Numbered from the stretch's first letter, positions 17,938 to 57,162 are shown. The stretch is 64,000 nucleotides of DNA from Nitrosopumilus cobalaminigenes (GCF_013407145.1 NZ_CP026993.1:1138590-1202589), one strand, 5' to 3'. The notes: generated by a model from the sequence alone, not told the origin. Made by a program: numbers and translations.

Positions 17938-18051
17938 TCAATGCAAAAAGAATTTTCTTGAATGAACGAAGCTACAATCAGATGAGCAAAAACTAGTCTT
18001 CTTTAAAACAAAATCATCTTCACAATTTCTACATTTAGGCATATTATTCAT
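17938..18051 (-). CDS. 37-residue zinc-binding mini-protein (CxxC ... FCSxxC)
   Basis: The small frame has ATG at 18051 and TGA at 17940-17938. It encodes KCRNCEDDFVLKKTSFCSSDC near its N-terminal half, a four-Cys treble-clef-like motif, followed by a basic tail. The motif matches those of the mini-proteins at 54813 and 54957, which supports it as a real gene. It fills most of the gap between the histidine kinase and the ABC transporter; the rest of 17800-18138 shows no further gene. Confidence 0.6.
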   Translation of the reverse strand: MNNMPKCRNCEDDFVLKKTSFCSSDCSFVHSRKFFLH

Positions 18052-53394: not shown

Positions 53395-53509
53395 GCCGGG
53401 GTAGCTCAGCCTGGTTAGAGTGCCAGTTAATTTGGTAAACTCTAACGGTTCTCCAACTAAGGCAATACTCATAATCTGGAGGTCGCGAGTTCGAAACTCG
53501 CCCCCGGCA
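53395..53509 (+). tRNA. Elongator tRNA-Met (anticodon CAT) with a 40-nt intron
   Basis: The acceptor stem is GCCGGGG (53395-53401) with CCCCGGC (53502-53508) and discriminator A at 53509. The D-arm is at 53404-53420 and the T-arm GCGAG-TTCGAAA-CTCGC at 53485-53501. After removing 53427-53466, the anticodon arm becomes CCAGA-CTCATAA-TCTGG with anticodon CAT, exactly the archaeal elongator-Met arrangement. CCA is not encoded. A tRNA-Ile with modified CAT is less likely because the sequence matches archaeal elongator Met closely. Confidence 0.93.
53427..53466 (+). other. tRNA intron at non-canonical position 30/31
   Basis: A bulge-helix-bulge motif surrounds the intron. The helix TGCC (53421-53424) pairs with GGCA (53461-53464). 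The 5' bulge AGT (53425-53427) would be cut after its second base and the 3' bulge ATA (53465-53467) after its second base, and GAG/CTC closes the outer side. The splice points fall in the anticodon stem between positions 30 and 31, not at the usual 37/38. Confidence 0.85.
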
Positions 53510-53698: not shown

Positions 53699-53893
53699 TT
53701 AAATTTTTTCTTTACAGTCTTTTTTATGTTTTCTCAAATCCTCAGTAGAATGAAATTCAGAACCACATGCTCTACATGTCTCCTTTTTCTTATTATGTGC
53801 AATTTCTTTATGTTTTTTTAGTCTTTCAGGATACTTGAATCTTGATCCACATTTATCACATTTTAAATTCCTGCCAAAATCTGTTGATGACAT
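53699..53893 (-). CDS. Two-finger C2H2 zinc-finger protein
   Basis: The 64-residue basic protein contains two classical C2H2 fingers: CDKCGSRFKYPERLKKHKEIAH (residues 12-33) and CRACGSEFHSTEDLRKHKKDC (about 40-60), the second with Cys in place of the last His. The spacing is eukaryote-like. It probably binds nucleic acid. It is the first of a set of very small zinc proteins in the 3.5 kb after tRNA-Met. Confidence 0.85.
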   Translation of the reverse strand: MSSTDFGRNLKCDKCGSRFKYPERLKKHKEIAHNKKKETCRACGSEFHSTEDLRKHKKDCKEKI

Positions 53894-54025
53894 ACTTTGC
53901 TTGATATCTCATAGTACTAAAATCAATTTTTTAACAAATGTTAATATCTGAAATGCAGTTACGGTCTTATCAAAATTAATCAATAATAGTTGAATTTGTA
54001 GAGATTTGTATTTCTGAGGGGTTAT

Positions 54026-54142
54026 CTAAATACTAGGTGGTTTCACTTTATCCCAACAAACAACACAAAGATACCCATAACAAATAATCTGACCTTTGCT
54101 CAAATCATCCCCACATGTTTTACATGTAATTTGACAAGTCAT
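54026..54142 (-). CDS. 38-residue zinc-ribbon mini-protein
   Basis: ATG at 54142 and TAG at 54028-54026 enclose 38 codons. The product has CKTCGDDLSKG and then CYGYLCVVCW, together a likely four-Cys zinc site. Its ATG overlaps the stop of the mini-gene at 54139-54249 (ATGA), which argues for translational coupling and against chance. Confidence 0.6.
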   Translation of the reverse strand: MTCQITCKTCGDDLSKGQIICYGYLCVVCWDKVKPPSI

Positions 54143-54249
54143 TCTAGAATTTTATGACATATTACGCATTCTCGTTTGCCATTCAAATTATCCATCACAA
54201 TTGATGGGAAATGAACGCAGTTTTTTTGTTTTAGTATTTGAAATGTCAA
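54139..54249 (-). CDS. 36-residue zinc-binding mini-protein, TTG start
   Basis: A frame from TTG at 54249 to TGA at 54141-54139 encodes a product with NCVHFPSIVMDNLNGKREC and then VICHKILE. It matches the product at 55568 in pattern: NC-x-H, about 14 residues, (R)-x-EC-x2-CHK-x-LE. This repeated pattern supports the gene despite its TTG start. An internal ATG gives only 18 residues and would lose the first Cys/His pair. Confidence 0.5.
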   Translation of the reverse strand: MTFQILKQKNCVHFPSIVMDNLNGKRECVICHKILE

Positions 54250-54383
54250 TTTTACCTATAGATGTATTTTCAAATCCATAATTAAATAAGACAAGAATTG
54301 TGTCCATTCTGAATGAAAACAACTAGACTTGTGATCAAAATAGAAAATACTATATTTTTATTCTAGGAAAAAAACAGTAATTC

Positions 54384-54539
54384 ATGCAAGTTGAAACAAT
54401 TCAAACTGAAGAACTATCAGAATTAGATTCATTAGTTAATGAAATTGTAAAACAAAGACGAATCATAGATGTGAAACTAACAACCACAGTAGTTCAAGAA
54501 AGGATCATTTACACAGCTCTTGTAATTCTTGATGATTGA
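54384..54539 (+). CDS. 51-residue protein of unknown function
   Basis: The product is acidic at its start (QVETIQTEELSELDSLVNEI) and ends in a strand-like VQERIIYTALVILDD. A TATA-like TATATTTTTATT at 54350-54361 is centred about 28 nt before the ATG, consistent with a leaderless transcript. No family is recognised; it has no Cys, unlike its neighbours. Confidence 0.55.
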   Translation: MQVETIQTEELSELDSLVNEIVKQRRIIDVKLTTTVVQERIIYTALVILDD

Positions 54540-54591
54540 TTATTTATTCATCTATTCCTGAAAGACCTGAAACAGCCCCAAACTGAAAACC

Positions 54592-54744
54592 ATGGCTGCT
54601 AAAGATTTGGGACATGTCTCTAGGTCTTATTGGTATTTGGGCTTTGAATTCATCTACCAATATTTTTCACTAAATATCTCAATATCAAATCATATTTCAG
54701 ATGTAAAAAAATTGTTCTCAGCCAATACAAAGTCAACTAGATGA
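54592..54744 (+). CDS. Possible 50-residue protein
   Basis: An ATG-initiated frame ends in TGA at 54742-54744. The product has an aromatic-rich middle (SRSYWYLGFEFIYQYFSLNI), unlike random translation of AT-rich DNA, but no recognised motif. No clear promoter is seen. Otherwise the 270 bp between 54540 and 54812 hold nothing recognisable. Confidence 0.3.
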   Translation: MAAKDLGHVSRSYWYLGFEFIYQYFSLNISISNHISDVKKLFSANTKSTR

Positions 54745-54812
54745 CTTGGTAGTGAATTTAATCAAATGAGGTATTTGTTAAATTTCCCTATTCAAAATAA
54801 TATTTGCAAATA

Positions 54813-54947
54813 TTGAAGATTCGTAAACCATTATTTTCATCAGATAAAGAAATAATCAAAACATGTTCTATATGTGGTAATAAATTCAAAGATCAAGATA
54901 GTGATTTTTGTTCATCAAAATGTGCTTCACAACATCAAGGGATTTAA
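54813..54947 (+). CDS. 44-residue zinc mini-protein (CxxCG ... FCSxxC), TTG start
   Basis: TTG at 54813 starts a product with TCSICGNKFKDQDSDFCSSKC, a four-Cys treble-clef-like knuckle, ending ASQHQGI. The spacing and the FCSSKC core match the mini-proteins at 17938 and 54957. It is nine bases upstream of the next mini-gene on the same strand. Confidence 0.6.
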   Translation: MKIRKPLFSSDKEIIKTCSICGNKFKDQDSDFCSSKCASQHQGI

Positions 54948-54956
54948 AAAGTTAGA

Positions 54957-55088
54957 ATGAAAAATCAAAAATGCCTTTGTTGTGGAAGACAGTCAATGAC
55001 AGATATGGGATTTTATTGTTCTTATCAATGTGAATTTATTGCATCAATCACTAGAAAGAAATTTTATAATAAAAAAGAACTACAGTAA
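54957..55088 (+). CDS. 43-residue zinc mini-protein (CxCCG ... YCSYQC)
   Basis: ATG at 54957 and TAA at 55086-55088. The product has CLCCGRQSMTDMGFYCSYQC and then a basic helix (TRKKFYNKKELQ). The Cys pattern is the same as in the gene just upstream. The pair looks like a tandem duplication that diverged. Confidence 0.6.
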   Translation: MKNQKCLCCGRQSMTDMGFYCSYQCEFIASITRKKFYNKKELQ

Positions 55089-55287
55089 AATTGTGATTGA
55101 AGGTTTTTCTTTCCGTATGGGTTTTACCAACTAGGTTTTGCCTACAAACCTTGTGACGGCAAATCAGAATTAAAATTCATTAATTTAAACTTGATGAACA
55201 ATTTACATTCAAAATAACAAGTTGACTTTATTCTAAATGAAATCAAAATGATATATCTTTAATATCAAAATCAACAATACCTATCTC

Positions 55288-55354
55288 GTGCGACATTGAC
55301 ATAGCATGTCAGAGAGATGCCTTCGTATCCAGACAGCATAGTCATTTGACGCAC
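55288..55354 (+). ncRNA. Candidate structured RNA with closing stem and three hairpins
   Basis: In the gene-free stretch 55089-55448 lies a GC-richer block. GTGCG (55288-55292) pairs with CGCAC (55350-55354). Inside are hairpins 55297-55302/55306-55311 (TGACAT/ATGTCA), 55316-55320/55325-55329 (GATGC/GTATC) and a weak 55332-55334/55341-55343. The overall shape is a four-way junction of 67 nt. It lacks the conserved tRNA positions and T-arm. The strand is uncertain. The rest of the stretch shows no gene. Confidence 0.4.
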
Positions 55355-55448
55355 TAATAATTTCATTAATCTAGTTGATATCATTGAGATTGAAGTCAAC
55401 TTCTCCATCATTTATTATTAAAAATAATCTTAGCATGTTGGATAAAAA

Positions 55449-55547
55449 ATGAAATATAATTGTCGAGAATGCAAATTCAAATGGGAAGGAAATTCTGACA
55501 CATTTTATACAGTGTTAGAACATGAAAAAATTCACGTGACAGAATAA
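55449..55547 (+). CDS. 32-residue single-C2H2-finger protein
   Basis: The product is essentially one finger: CRECKFKWEGNSDTFYTVLE then HEKIH, with C-x2-C and H-x4-H spacing. ATG at 55449, TAA at 55545-55547. It resembles single C2H2 fingers of archaea and lies 20 bp upstream of another mini-gene on the same strand. Confidence 0.6.
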   Translation: MKYNCRECKFKWEGNSDTFYTVLEHEKIHVTE

Positions 55548-55567
55548 AACCACATTAAGGAAATACG

Positions 55568-55687
55568 ATGTCATCTAAAATACCAACACAAGCAAATTGC
55601 TCACATGAAGCCAAAGTAATGATGCCTGGTCACAAGAGTCGATACGAGTGTACCACGTGTCATAAATTTTTAGAAATATCCACATAG
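55568..55687 (+). CDS. 39-residue zinc-binding mini-protein
   Basis: ATG at 55568 and TAG at 55685-55687. The product contains NCSHEAKVMMPGHKSRYEC and TTCHKFLEIST. The NC-x-H ... YEC-x2-CHK-x-LE pattern is shared with the mini-protein at 54139-54249 on the other strand, so the two are paralogues. Confidence 0.6.
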   Translation: MSSKIPTQANCSHEAKVMMPGHKSRYECTTCHKFLEIST

Positions 55688-55752: not shown

Positions 55753-56529
55753 TTAGATAATTTTTCCAGTTACAGCATCCACTCGGGCAACTACAACCTT
55801 GTTTTTCTCATCATAACATTTTGTCTCATAAATTGGAACAAAAATCTCCTGAAATTTAGTCACAACGTATTCCTCATGATTGATTATCAAATCATGTTTT
55901 AGACTTTCTTTTAATTTATGAAATAGTTTTGAAAAAAGCTCATTGTTAGTCATCTTGATTTTTCGAGTATGGCTTTTGTTTACATCAAGTACATTTTGGA
56001 CGAAATTTTCTACTGCATCAGAATCAGTACTATAATCAAAAGTAGTTTCCAATCCATTATGATCAAAATACATAGAATCAGTCATACTTTTGACTGCATT
56101 TTCAGTTACATTGAGTTCCAAATCTTGTTTAGTAATTCCAACACCTTGTTTCATTTTTTTACCAAATTTCTTCCACACGCCTGATTCATTTAAGACAGGA
56201 AATTTTTTAGTTCCAATTGCAACTTCGACAACATCAGGGTCAACCTTAATCATGTATGAAGCATTCCTATCAAAATCAATTTCATAGTGACCTAAAATGA
56301 AAACATATTGTTCCAAATACAATTGTGGAGTTTCAACTGTTATCTCATCTGATTTTGGACGTCTTAATGCAGAACCAAAAAACGATGTTTTCTTTTTATC
56401 TAAAATTTCAATAATGTCTTGAGGTAATAGTTTAGTCCTAAGCACAATAGTTTCTTTTGTTGGAATATTACTAGGTTTTAGATTTCTTTCATCTGTCAAT
56501 TTTATTTCAAATCCTTTCTGTCCATTCAA
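55753..56529 (-). CDS. Protein of unknown function in a SHOCT-gene operon
   Basis: The 258-residue product is soluble, without signal peptide or membrane span, and rich in charged beta-strand-like segments. Its end, FVPIYETKCYDEKNKVVVARVDAVTGKII, resembles a beta-hairpin domain of the PepSY/archaeal DUF type but is not assigned. The ATG overlaps the stop of the upstream SHOCT gene by four bases, so the two products probably work together. The last 60 bp lie close to the mini zinc-protein cluster. Confidence 0.7.
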   Translation of the reverse strand: MNGQKGFEIKLTDERNLKPSNIPTKETIVLRTKLLPQDIIEILDKKKTSFFGSALRRPKSDEITVETPQLYLEQYVFILGHYEIDFDRNASYMIKVDPDVVEVAIGTKKFPVLNESGVWKKFGKKMKQGVGITKQDLELNVTENAVKSMTDSMYFDHNGLETTFDYSTDSDAVENFVQNVLDVNKSHTRKIKMTNNELFSKLFHKLKESLKHDLIINHEEYVVTKFQEIFVPIYETKCYDEKNKVVVARVDAVTGKII

Positions 56530-57002
56530 ATTCTATCTAAGATCTTTTTCTTTTTCTCATTGAATTCTTTCTCAGTAATGATTCCTAATTCTTTGAGTTT
56601 AGCTAATTTTTCTAGAATTTCAAGACTTGAAGCACCATATTGTGTACCAAGTTTGATCCTACCCACAATTAATTCAAAAAAGTAAAAAAAAGCATTGGAA
56701 ATTTTTTTATAAAATTTAGGGCTTTTCTTTATGAACATACTTTTTTGCTCTAAACCTTTTTCTCTAATTTTTAATGAATTGATTTTTAATGATTTTAGAT
56801 ATTCTTGGGATTTTAGAAAATCCGTAGTATTGTTAGTGATTTGGTTTATTTTTTCTAGGGATTCTTTACCTATCTGCTTTCCTTGTTCAACAGTTTGAGC
56901 ATAATTCTTTGTAACATCTTCTATAATGTGCTCTTGTTTTTTCTTGAGGTTTTTTCCAAAATTCTGCGATTTTTCTTTTTTATTGACCATGCATTCTACC
57001 AT
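56526..57002 (-). CDS. Coiled-coil protein with C-terminal SHOCT domain
   Basis: The 158-residue product is helical and highly charged in its first 95 residues (KKKQEHIIEDVTKNYAQ ...), with a hydrophobic patch near 100-112 (ISNAFFYFFELIVG) that may touch the membrane. It ends in LAKLKELGIITEKEFNEKKKKIL, the SHOCT motif that mediates oligomerisation in many surface or phage-related proteins. An ATG at residue 6 is also possible. It is the first gene of a two-gene operon. Confidence 0.75.
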   Translation of the reverse strand: MVECMVNKKEKSQNFGKNLKKKQEHIIEDVTKNYAQTVEQGKQIGKESLEKINQITNNTTDFLKSQEYLKSLKINSLKIREKGLEQKSMFIKKSPKFYKKISNAFFYFFELIVGRIKLGTQYGASSLEILEKLAKLKELGIITEKEFNEKKKKILDRI

Positions 57003-57096
57003 ATGCCTGAATTATTAATCCGAATACAAGTTGATTCCATTATGAATCAAGTCAATTATCCCCTATCTTAATAGTTTGAAAGTGATATACTATCCA

Positions 57097-57162
57097 AGTG
57101 AATTCGTGATAAGACAGCTGTACACTCCCTTCGGTACAGGTCTGCCTTCACGTAAATTCACT
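57097..57162 (+). ncRNA. Candidate structured RNA: long four-segment hairpin
   Basis: A nested hairpin is formed by AGTGAATT/AATTCACT (57097-57104 with 57155-57162), CGTG/CACG (57105-57108 with 57149-57152), AGAC/GTCT (57112-57115 with 57140-57143) and CTGTAC/GTACAG (57118-57123 with 57134-57139), capped by a ten-base loop. In total 22 base pairs are within 66 nt, much richer in GC than the flanks. It lies in the 289-bp gap between divergent genes and is followed by a TATA-like TATAAAAG. The direction of transcription is not known. Confidence 0.5.

Follow-up and report, generated by a model that had tools for sequence, protein, structure and literature searches.

A dense cluster of miniature genes in Nitrosopumilus cobalaminigenes probably belongs to a lineage-specific regulon in which mini-proteins and small RNAs would be switched by one regulator binding a 29 bp palindrome. 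The window analysed is a stretch of 64,000 nucleotides, bases 1138590-1202589 of the 1.56-Mb single-contig genome (G000), and its relevant features are collected in Table 1. The initial annotation of this stretch had described a series of tiny zinc-binding proteins downstream of a tRNA; it contained neither the palindromes nor the structured RNAs, both of which are present in the stretch.

Table 1. Mini-genes, palindromes and RNAs of the cluster and its surroundings, in window coordinates
Feature	Position	Strand	Remarks
H, 37-aa CxxC...FCSSDC frame	17938-18051	-	outside the 2-kb cluster
tRNA, CAU anticodon loop, intron	53395-53509	+	Rfam RF00005, 48.2 bits; left boundary of the region
A, 64 aa, two C2H2-type fingers	53699-53893	-	no palindrome in front; genus-wide family
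B, 38-aa four-Cys ribbon	54026-54142	-	gene 2 of predicted operon C-B
C, 36-aa NC-x-H...EC-x2-CHK protein	54139-54249	-	TTG start; paralogue of G
Palindrome 1	54296-54324		26.7 bits; between operon C-B (-) and 51-aa gene (+)
51-aa non-zinc mini-protein (MQVETIQTEEL...ALVILDD)	54384-54539	+	dN 0.13-0.22 against near-saturated dS
Palindromes 2 and 3, tandem, 29-bp pitch	54710-54767 (starts 54710, 54739)		21.5 and 21.8 bits; upstream of D-E
D, 47-aa CxxC...FCSSKC protein	54804-54947	+	TTG start 36 nt from palindrome 3
E, 43-aa CxxCG...YCSYQC protein	54957-55088	+	second of the D-E pair
RNA1, conserved structured RNA	55098-55163	-	strand deduced from a G-U pair and from a TATA-like box some 20-30 nt upstream
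Palindrome 4	55220-55248		35.8 bits; between RNA1 (-) and RNA2 (+)
RNA2, long imperfect hairpin	55288-55354	+	eight aligned copies, one partial; two covarying pairs
Palindrome 5	55373-55401		29.0 bits; upstream of F-G
F, 32-aa one-finger C2H2-like protein	55449-55547	+	ATG 47 nt from palindrome 5
G, 39-aa paralogue of C	55568-55687	+	gene 2 of predicted operon F-G
158-aa protein, C-terminal SHOCT-like domain	56526-57002	-	led by palindrome 6
Palindrome 6	57029-57057		29.5 bits; between 158-aa gene (-) and RNA3 (+)
RNA3, structured RNA	57097-57162	+	39 nt from palindrome 6
UspA-like gene	57292		

Cys/His mini-protein genes

All of the tiny frames named in the initial annotation are present where it had placed them, including the seven Cys/His frames A to G of the cluster and the overlap of the C and B genes as ATGA. 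The seven proteins are below 70 aa in length, in the range 32–64 aa, with D being 44 aa if read from the next TTG. B, D and E carry two Cys pairs, which in D and E are one CxxCG and one FCSxxC or YCSxxC, and A, C, F and G carry Cys/His arrangements. The claim of an unusual density of mini zinc-type genes was borne out, and none of the mini-protein frames tested reached the curated cut-off of a named family in Pfam or NCBIfam. A is the only one that resembles the known C2H2 zinc fingers (Pfam zf-C2H2, ZNF568), with two tandem fingers matching zinc finger protein 568 (ZNF568) in the PDB at E = 4.7e-15, but it scores just below the Pfam cut-offs (25.1 bits against 27 for zf-C2H2_4 and 21.9 bits against 25.2 for zf-C2H2). 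F has a single atypical finger.

Across 79 Nitrosopumilus genomes, nearly all matches to the B–G families were free of stop codons. E was found in 12 of these genomes, B in 4–5, the C/G family in 21 and F in 50 with up to seven copies per genome, while the D query matched 55 genomes at E ≤ 0.01, mostly as distant relatives. The D–E tandem pair is conserved in five other Nitrosopumilus genomes, and relatives of A are present in the majority of the genus. Two more copies of A occur in the source genome (G000:C1:396019 and 1514143). For H, a single relative with 68% identity was found among the collected loci, in G006, inside a 3-kb locus (L101) that had been fetched for its copy of F.

Differences between relatives were most frequent at the third codon position for F (425/405/803 at positions 1/2/3), G (281/274/532), E (140/160/278), B (22/19/49) and A (40/17/68), with a weaker third-position excess for C (204/143/228) and D (167/145/206). 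Likewise, dN was 0.04–0.19 compared to a dS of about 0.8–1.1 for A and 0.07–0.16 compared to a much larger dS in most comparisons for F, with a similar picture for B, E, G and the 51-aa gene and a weaker one for C and D. Three further frames of the stretch served as controls; they yielded 0, 1 and 2 relatives, without any third-position excess.

Very short ORFs in AT-rich DNA would suit a reading of A–G as chance open frames, a doubt that the initial annotation had itself raised in case conservation and purifying selection should be missing. This reading was rejected, and its probability is negligible, because relatives keep the frames open with dN below dS, third-position differences are in excess, the control frames behave differently and the D–E pair is kept elsewhere. 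The tiny Cys/His proteins A–G are almost certainly real, selected genes, the pattern being less pronounced for C and D.

A conserved 29 bp palindrome

The gaps between the genes were compared using blast, which revealed conserved non-coding DNA, one piece of which also fronts other mini-genes. In this way a 29 bp element with dyad symmetry was spotted, with the consensus AGTTGAyTTnATTCwGAATnAArTCAACT. Six matches with at most three mismatches occur in the window, compared with a mean of 0.04 in shuffled sequence, and palindromes 1–3 of the window are weak. Scored with a PWM, the collected loci (about 1 Mb) contained 117 sites exceeding 16 bits and shuffled sequence contained 0, an enrichment that is partly selected as these loci were chosen for zinc genes and RNAs. 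Both the genus-wide search and the RNA3 test described below are free of this locus-selection bias.

Among the 79 Nitrosopumilus genomes, the three-mismatch pattern was found in 31, with many matches per carrier and almost none for the reversed control. A sequence model placed the palindrome in 29 genomes, with up to 17 hits per genome (both strands counted), and found none in the other 50. Within a 300-genome sample of the order, several sites were present in one other genus (g12), and the hits elsewhere were scattered, single and near the three-mismatch limit. The palindrome was absent as an exact pattern from IMG/VR. Five of seven exact hits in a scan of named genomes were dismissed as chance because they fell in unrelated bacteria. 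No report of this palindrome, these RNAs or zinc mini-proteins in Nitrosopumilus was found in the literature searched.

Promoter geometry and palindrome-led genes

Each side of the palindrome is flanked at a distance of about 9 nt by a TATA-like box, the offset being 9 in 81 flanks. Starts peak at 38–40 or at 67–68 nt from the palindrome edge (ATG peaks at 38 and 67–68), so that the second class is displaced outwards by one 29-bp pitch. Of 12 close palindrome pairs in tandem, 11 have a pitch of precisely 29 bp. The starts in the window are 36–60 nt beyond the palindromes. This spacing of palindrome, TATA-like box and start indicates promoter geometry, and the palindrome is very likely to be a functional promoter element. 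As an independent check, the covariance model of RNA3 was used to find copies outside the palindrome-seeded loci, and 10 of 13 such copies had a palindrome 37–40 nt upstream.

Copy 1 of the window fronts C–B together with the 51-aa gene, copies 2 and 3 front D–E, copy 4 fronts RNA1 and RNA2, copy 5 fronts F–G, and copy 6 fronts the 158-aa SHOCT-domain gene and RNA3. By this arrangement B–G are read as three short operons (C–B, D–E and F–G) behind one palindromic element. The earlier statement that no standard operon explains the cluster is revised accordingly.

Among palindrome-led ORFs, which have a median length of 51 aa, 46 of 130 (35%) were Cys/His-rich compared with 41 of 564 (7%) at random positions. 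Outside the window the palindrome fronts dozens of other mini-protein genes, and the products led by it there were the 27-aa MKCQC..CMFHY family, MRCPNCGNQASW, and the MNIYDTK..C..CG, HCDYCG..YCS and CEDC.RMHC proteins, as well as proteins of ~126 aa without assigned function, membrane mini-proteins and RNAs. An additional 33 palindrome flanks lead RNA1, RNA2 or RNA3, and 66 of 232 flanks had neither a qualifying ORF nor a known RNA.

Looked at from the side of the zinc genes, a palindrome was present within 320 nt upstream of 7/29 copies of F (many of which are downstream genes of longer operons), 4/29 of C/G, 4/30 of D (a list that includes distant relatives), 7/16 of E and 1/5 of B. As most F and C/G copies elsewhere are without a palindrome, the zinc families are wider than the regulon. 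The same numbers, the lack of a palindrome for most D relatives and for A, and the weakness of window palindromes 1–3 would fit an alternative in which these are ordinary accessory mini-genes of a gene-poor region, each with its own control, the palindrome being incidental to the zinc proteins and mainly an element of the RNAs or other genes. This is unlikely, given that all three B–G operons in the window follow a palindrome and that Cys/His ORFs are about five-fold enriched behind palindromes. The nearest homologues of D–E also keep the tandem palindrome, at a similar distance in loci L116, L120 and L123 and more weakly in L118 and L119.

Structured RNAs

RNA1 was found in 36 of 167 Nitrosopumilaceae genomes, covering three genera, and is nearly invariant, with covariation at one pair only. 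For RNA3, the covariance model detected 35 copies in 21 of the 167 genomes, and four pairs showed compensatory change above both shuffled and slid controls. In Rfam 15 the tRNA was the only match of the window at or above the gathering score, and RNA1–3 had no credible match even among the weak ones.

The genes downstream of the RNA copies vary, and for this reason RNA1–3 look like free-standing RNAs. The possibility that RNA3 is a uspA leader was rejected on the same grounds, as such an arrangement is confined to the window copy and a small number of others. RNA2 and RNA3 both contain the words GUGAU, GCCUUC and AGACAGC, in differing order, as if one binding motif had been circularly permuted. 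These shared words could point to a common partner for the two RNAs.

tRNA and the downstream island

The tRNA at the left boundary of the region is probably a tRNA-Met, its loop CUCAUAA reading as CAU. It was not reported by ARAGORN, apparently because of its intron. A specific synteny of the cluster with tRNA-Met, as first proposed, was rejected as a rule because the families lie elsewhere in most genomes; what remains is a regional tendency, with the wider downstream region being a recurrent home. The mini-zinc families recur, reshuffled, in about 5 to 55 of the 79 Nitrosopumilus genomes. Palindromes occur within 35 kb downstream of the tRNA in the source genome G000 and in G051, G049, G009, G077 and G006, and are absent from that interval in G007, G001, G005 and G078.

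For the source genome, all listed palindrome sites fall within 35 kb downstream of the tRNA. Along a 121-kb contiguous stretch around the window, the first 54 kb are free of palindromes above 16 bits; 11 such sites follow from 54.3 to 88.4 kb, and past that point there is a single weak one. On the best reading, the cluster would be the first part of an accessory island carrying a regulon of miniature genes. The island also encodes a stand-alone Lrp/AsnC ligand-binding domain protein (L325:1228-1482) followed by a DUF6659 protein (L325:1485-1901), and both of these families recur near palindromes.

Gene combinations that differ between genomes, the clustering of sites in an accessory island, and an element that is palindromic and sporadic could also be taken to mean that the palindromes are boundaries of mobile or recombining cassettes, integron- or MITE-like, which shuffle tiny genes through the island. 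The two contigs C7 and C8 of G056, each of which stops roughly 100 bases or less from a copy of one and the same palindrome sequence, are in keeping with this, although they may reflect an assembly break at a repeat. Against this, the palindrome keeps a constant distance to the TATA box and start codon of either flank, and the copies diverge and sit between divergent starts rather than at cassette ends. A repeat of the tRNA 3' end was not found within 67 kb downstream, and inspection of the island's ORFs by eye, with ten of the proteins run against Pfam, revealed no integrase or recombinase. We therefore regard cassettes as quite improbable and retain the promoter-element reading of the palindrome.

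Tiny C2H2 proteins are known in archaeal viruses. The cluster might accordingly be what is left of archaeal viruses or integrated elements, or genes carried by them, with the zinc proteins serving as viral regulators or anti-element factors. C2H2 motifs have been described in archaea and their viruses (PMC3541406), and UspA is carried by integrated mobile elements of Thaumarchaeota (PMC6563490), which resemble the present region in their accessory islands, UspA genes (one UspA-like gene lies in the window) and tRNA-adjacent location but differ from it in the tRNA-derived repeat and the integrase, neither of which was seen here in the searches just described. Searches of IMG/VR for A, F and the 27-aa MKCQC family turned up no relatives. 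A viral origin was rejected on this basis and is very unlikely, and the anti-mobile-element role suggested in the initial annotation likewise found no backing in these comparisons.

Candidate regulator and proposed mechanism

The best candidate for the regulator of the palindrome is a protein of about 435 aa encoded in the island (L325:5652-6959, minus strand, corresponding to G000:C1:1208241-1209548). It has a weak winged-helix match, with a sub-threshold match to a Pfam HTH family and no relative in the PDB, and contains a conserved CxNCPFGxxxxSC cluster. A degenerate palindrome is located 73 nt ahead of its start. Relatives of this protein recur near palindromes in about ten palindrome-bearing genomes, several of them with the degenerate palindrome at this distance. 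In loci L167, L171 and L182, genes resembling that of transcription factor B (TFB) are found within 2.5 kb of palindromes.

Control by a single dimeric regulator is fairly likely. In the proposed mechanism, the dimer would bind the palindrome upstream of the TATA box, and recruitment of polymerase is likelier than blocking, given that the site does not cover the TATA box itself. The promoters flanking one palindrome on both sides would be switched together, giving mRNAs that should be nearly leaderless. The mini-proteins, many of which are probably zinc-stabilized, would fold around zinc and may serve as adaptors or bind nucleic acids, while a function in trans, in a conditional response, is proposed for the hairpin RNAs. 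The weakest step concerns the nature of that response; the neighbouring UspA genes make stress or starvation plausible, but such a role is less likely than not.

Comparison with known systems and significance

The small zinc-finger u-proteins of Haloferax volcanii (PMC6562870, PMC10716476, PMC11241148) and Brz of Halobacterium (PMC2253796) are below 70 aa, contain CxxC knuckles, number many per genome and give mutant phenotypes under particular conditions. The families described here are similar to the u-proteins in being archaeal, shorter than 70 aa and numerous per genome, and some of them have CxxC pairs. They differ in having no sequence match above a curated cut-off, in that several are of CxxC...HxxxxH or mixed Cys/His type, and in that their genes are clustered and would partly share one driving palindrome with structured RNAs. 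The mini-proteins would work in the manner of the u-proteins but are not assignable to them by sequence.

Shared upstream motifs have also been described for the copper response of another ammonia-oxidizing archaeon, Nitrososphaera viennensis, where TTCSGSMTTTGWACYANT and RATTTAAABATAGATTTAAATAATAAS are located mostly before hypothetical genes (PMC7785015). Those motifs have another consensus and belong to another organism, and small RNAs or zinc mini-genes are not reported in that paper's account of them.

Nitrosopumilus and its relatives are abundant marine ammonia oxidizers whose regulation is very little known. A palindrome with fixed promoter geometry would give access, by sequence, to a regulon whose small genes are probably missed by automatic annotation, and genus-wide comparison can turn frames of 30–40 aa into testable genes. 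The analysis supplies three RNA families, two of them built as covariance models, and one candidate regulator. It is possible, though doubtful at present, that one regulator co-expresses sets of zinc mini-proteins and three small-RNA families from bidirectional promoters, with RNA2 and RNA3 sharing a common partner, perhaps a zinc mini-protein; this would be a previously undescribed network in marine ammonia-oxidizing archaea.
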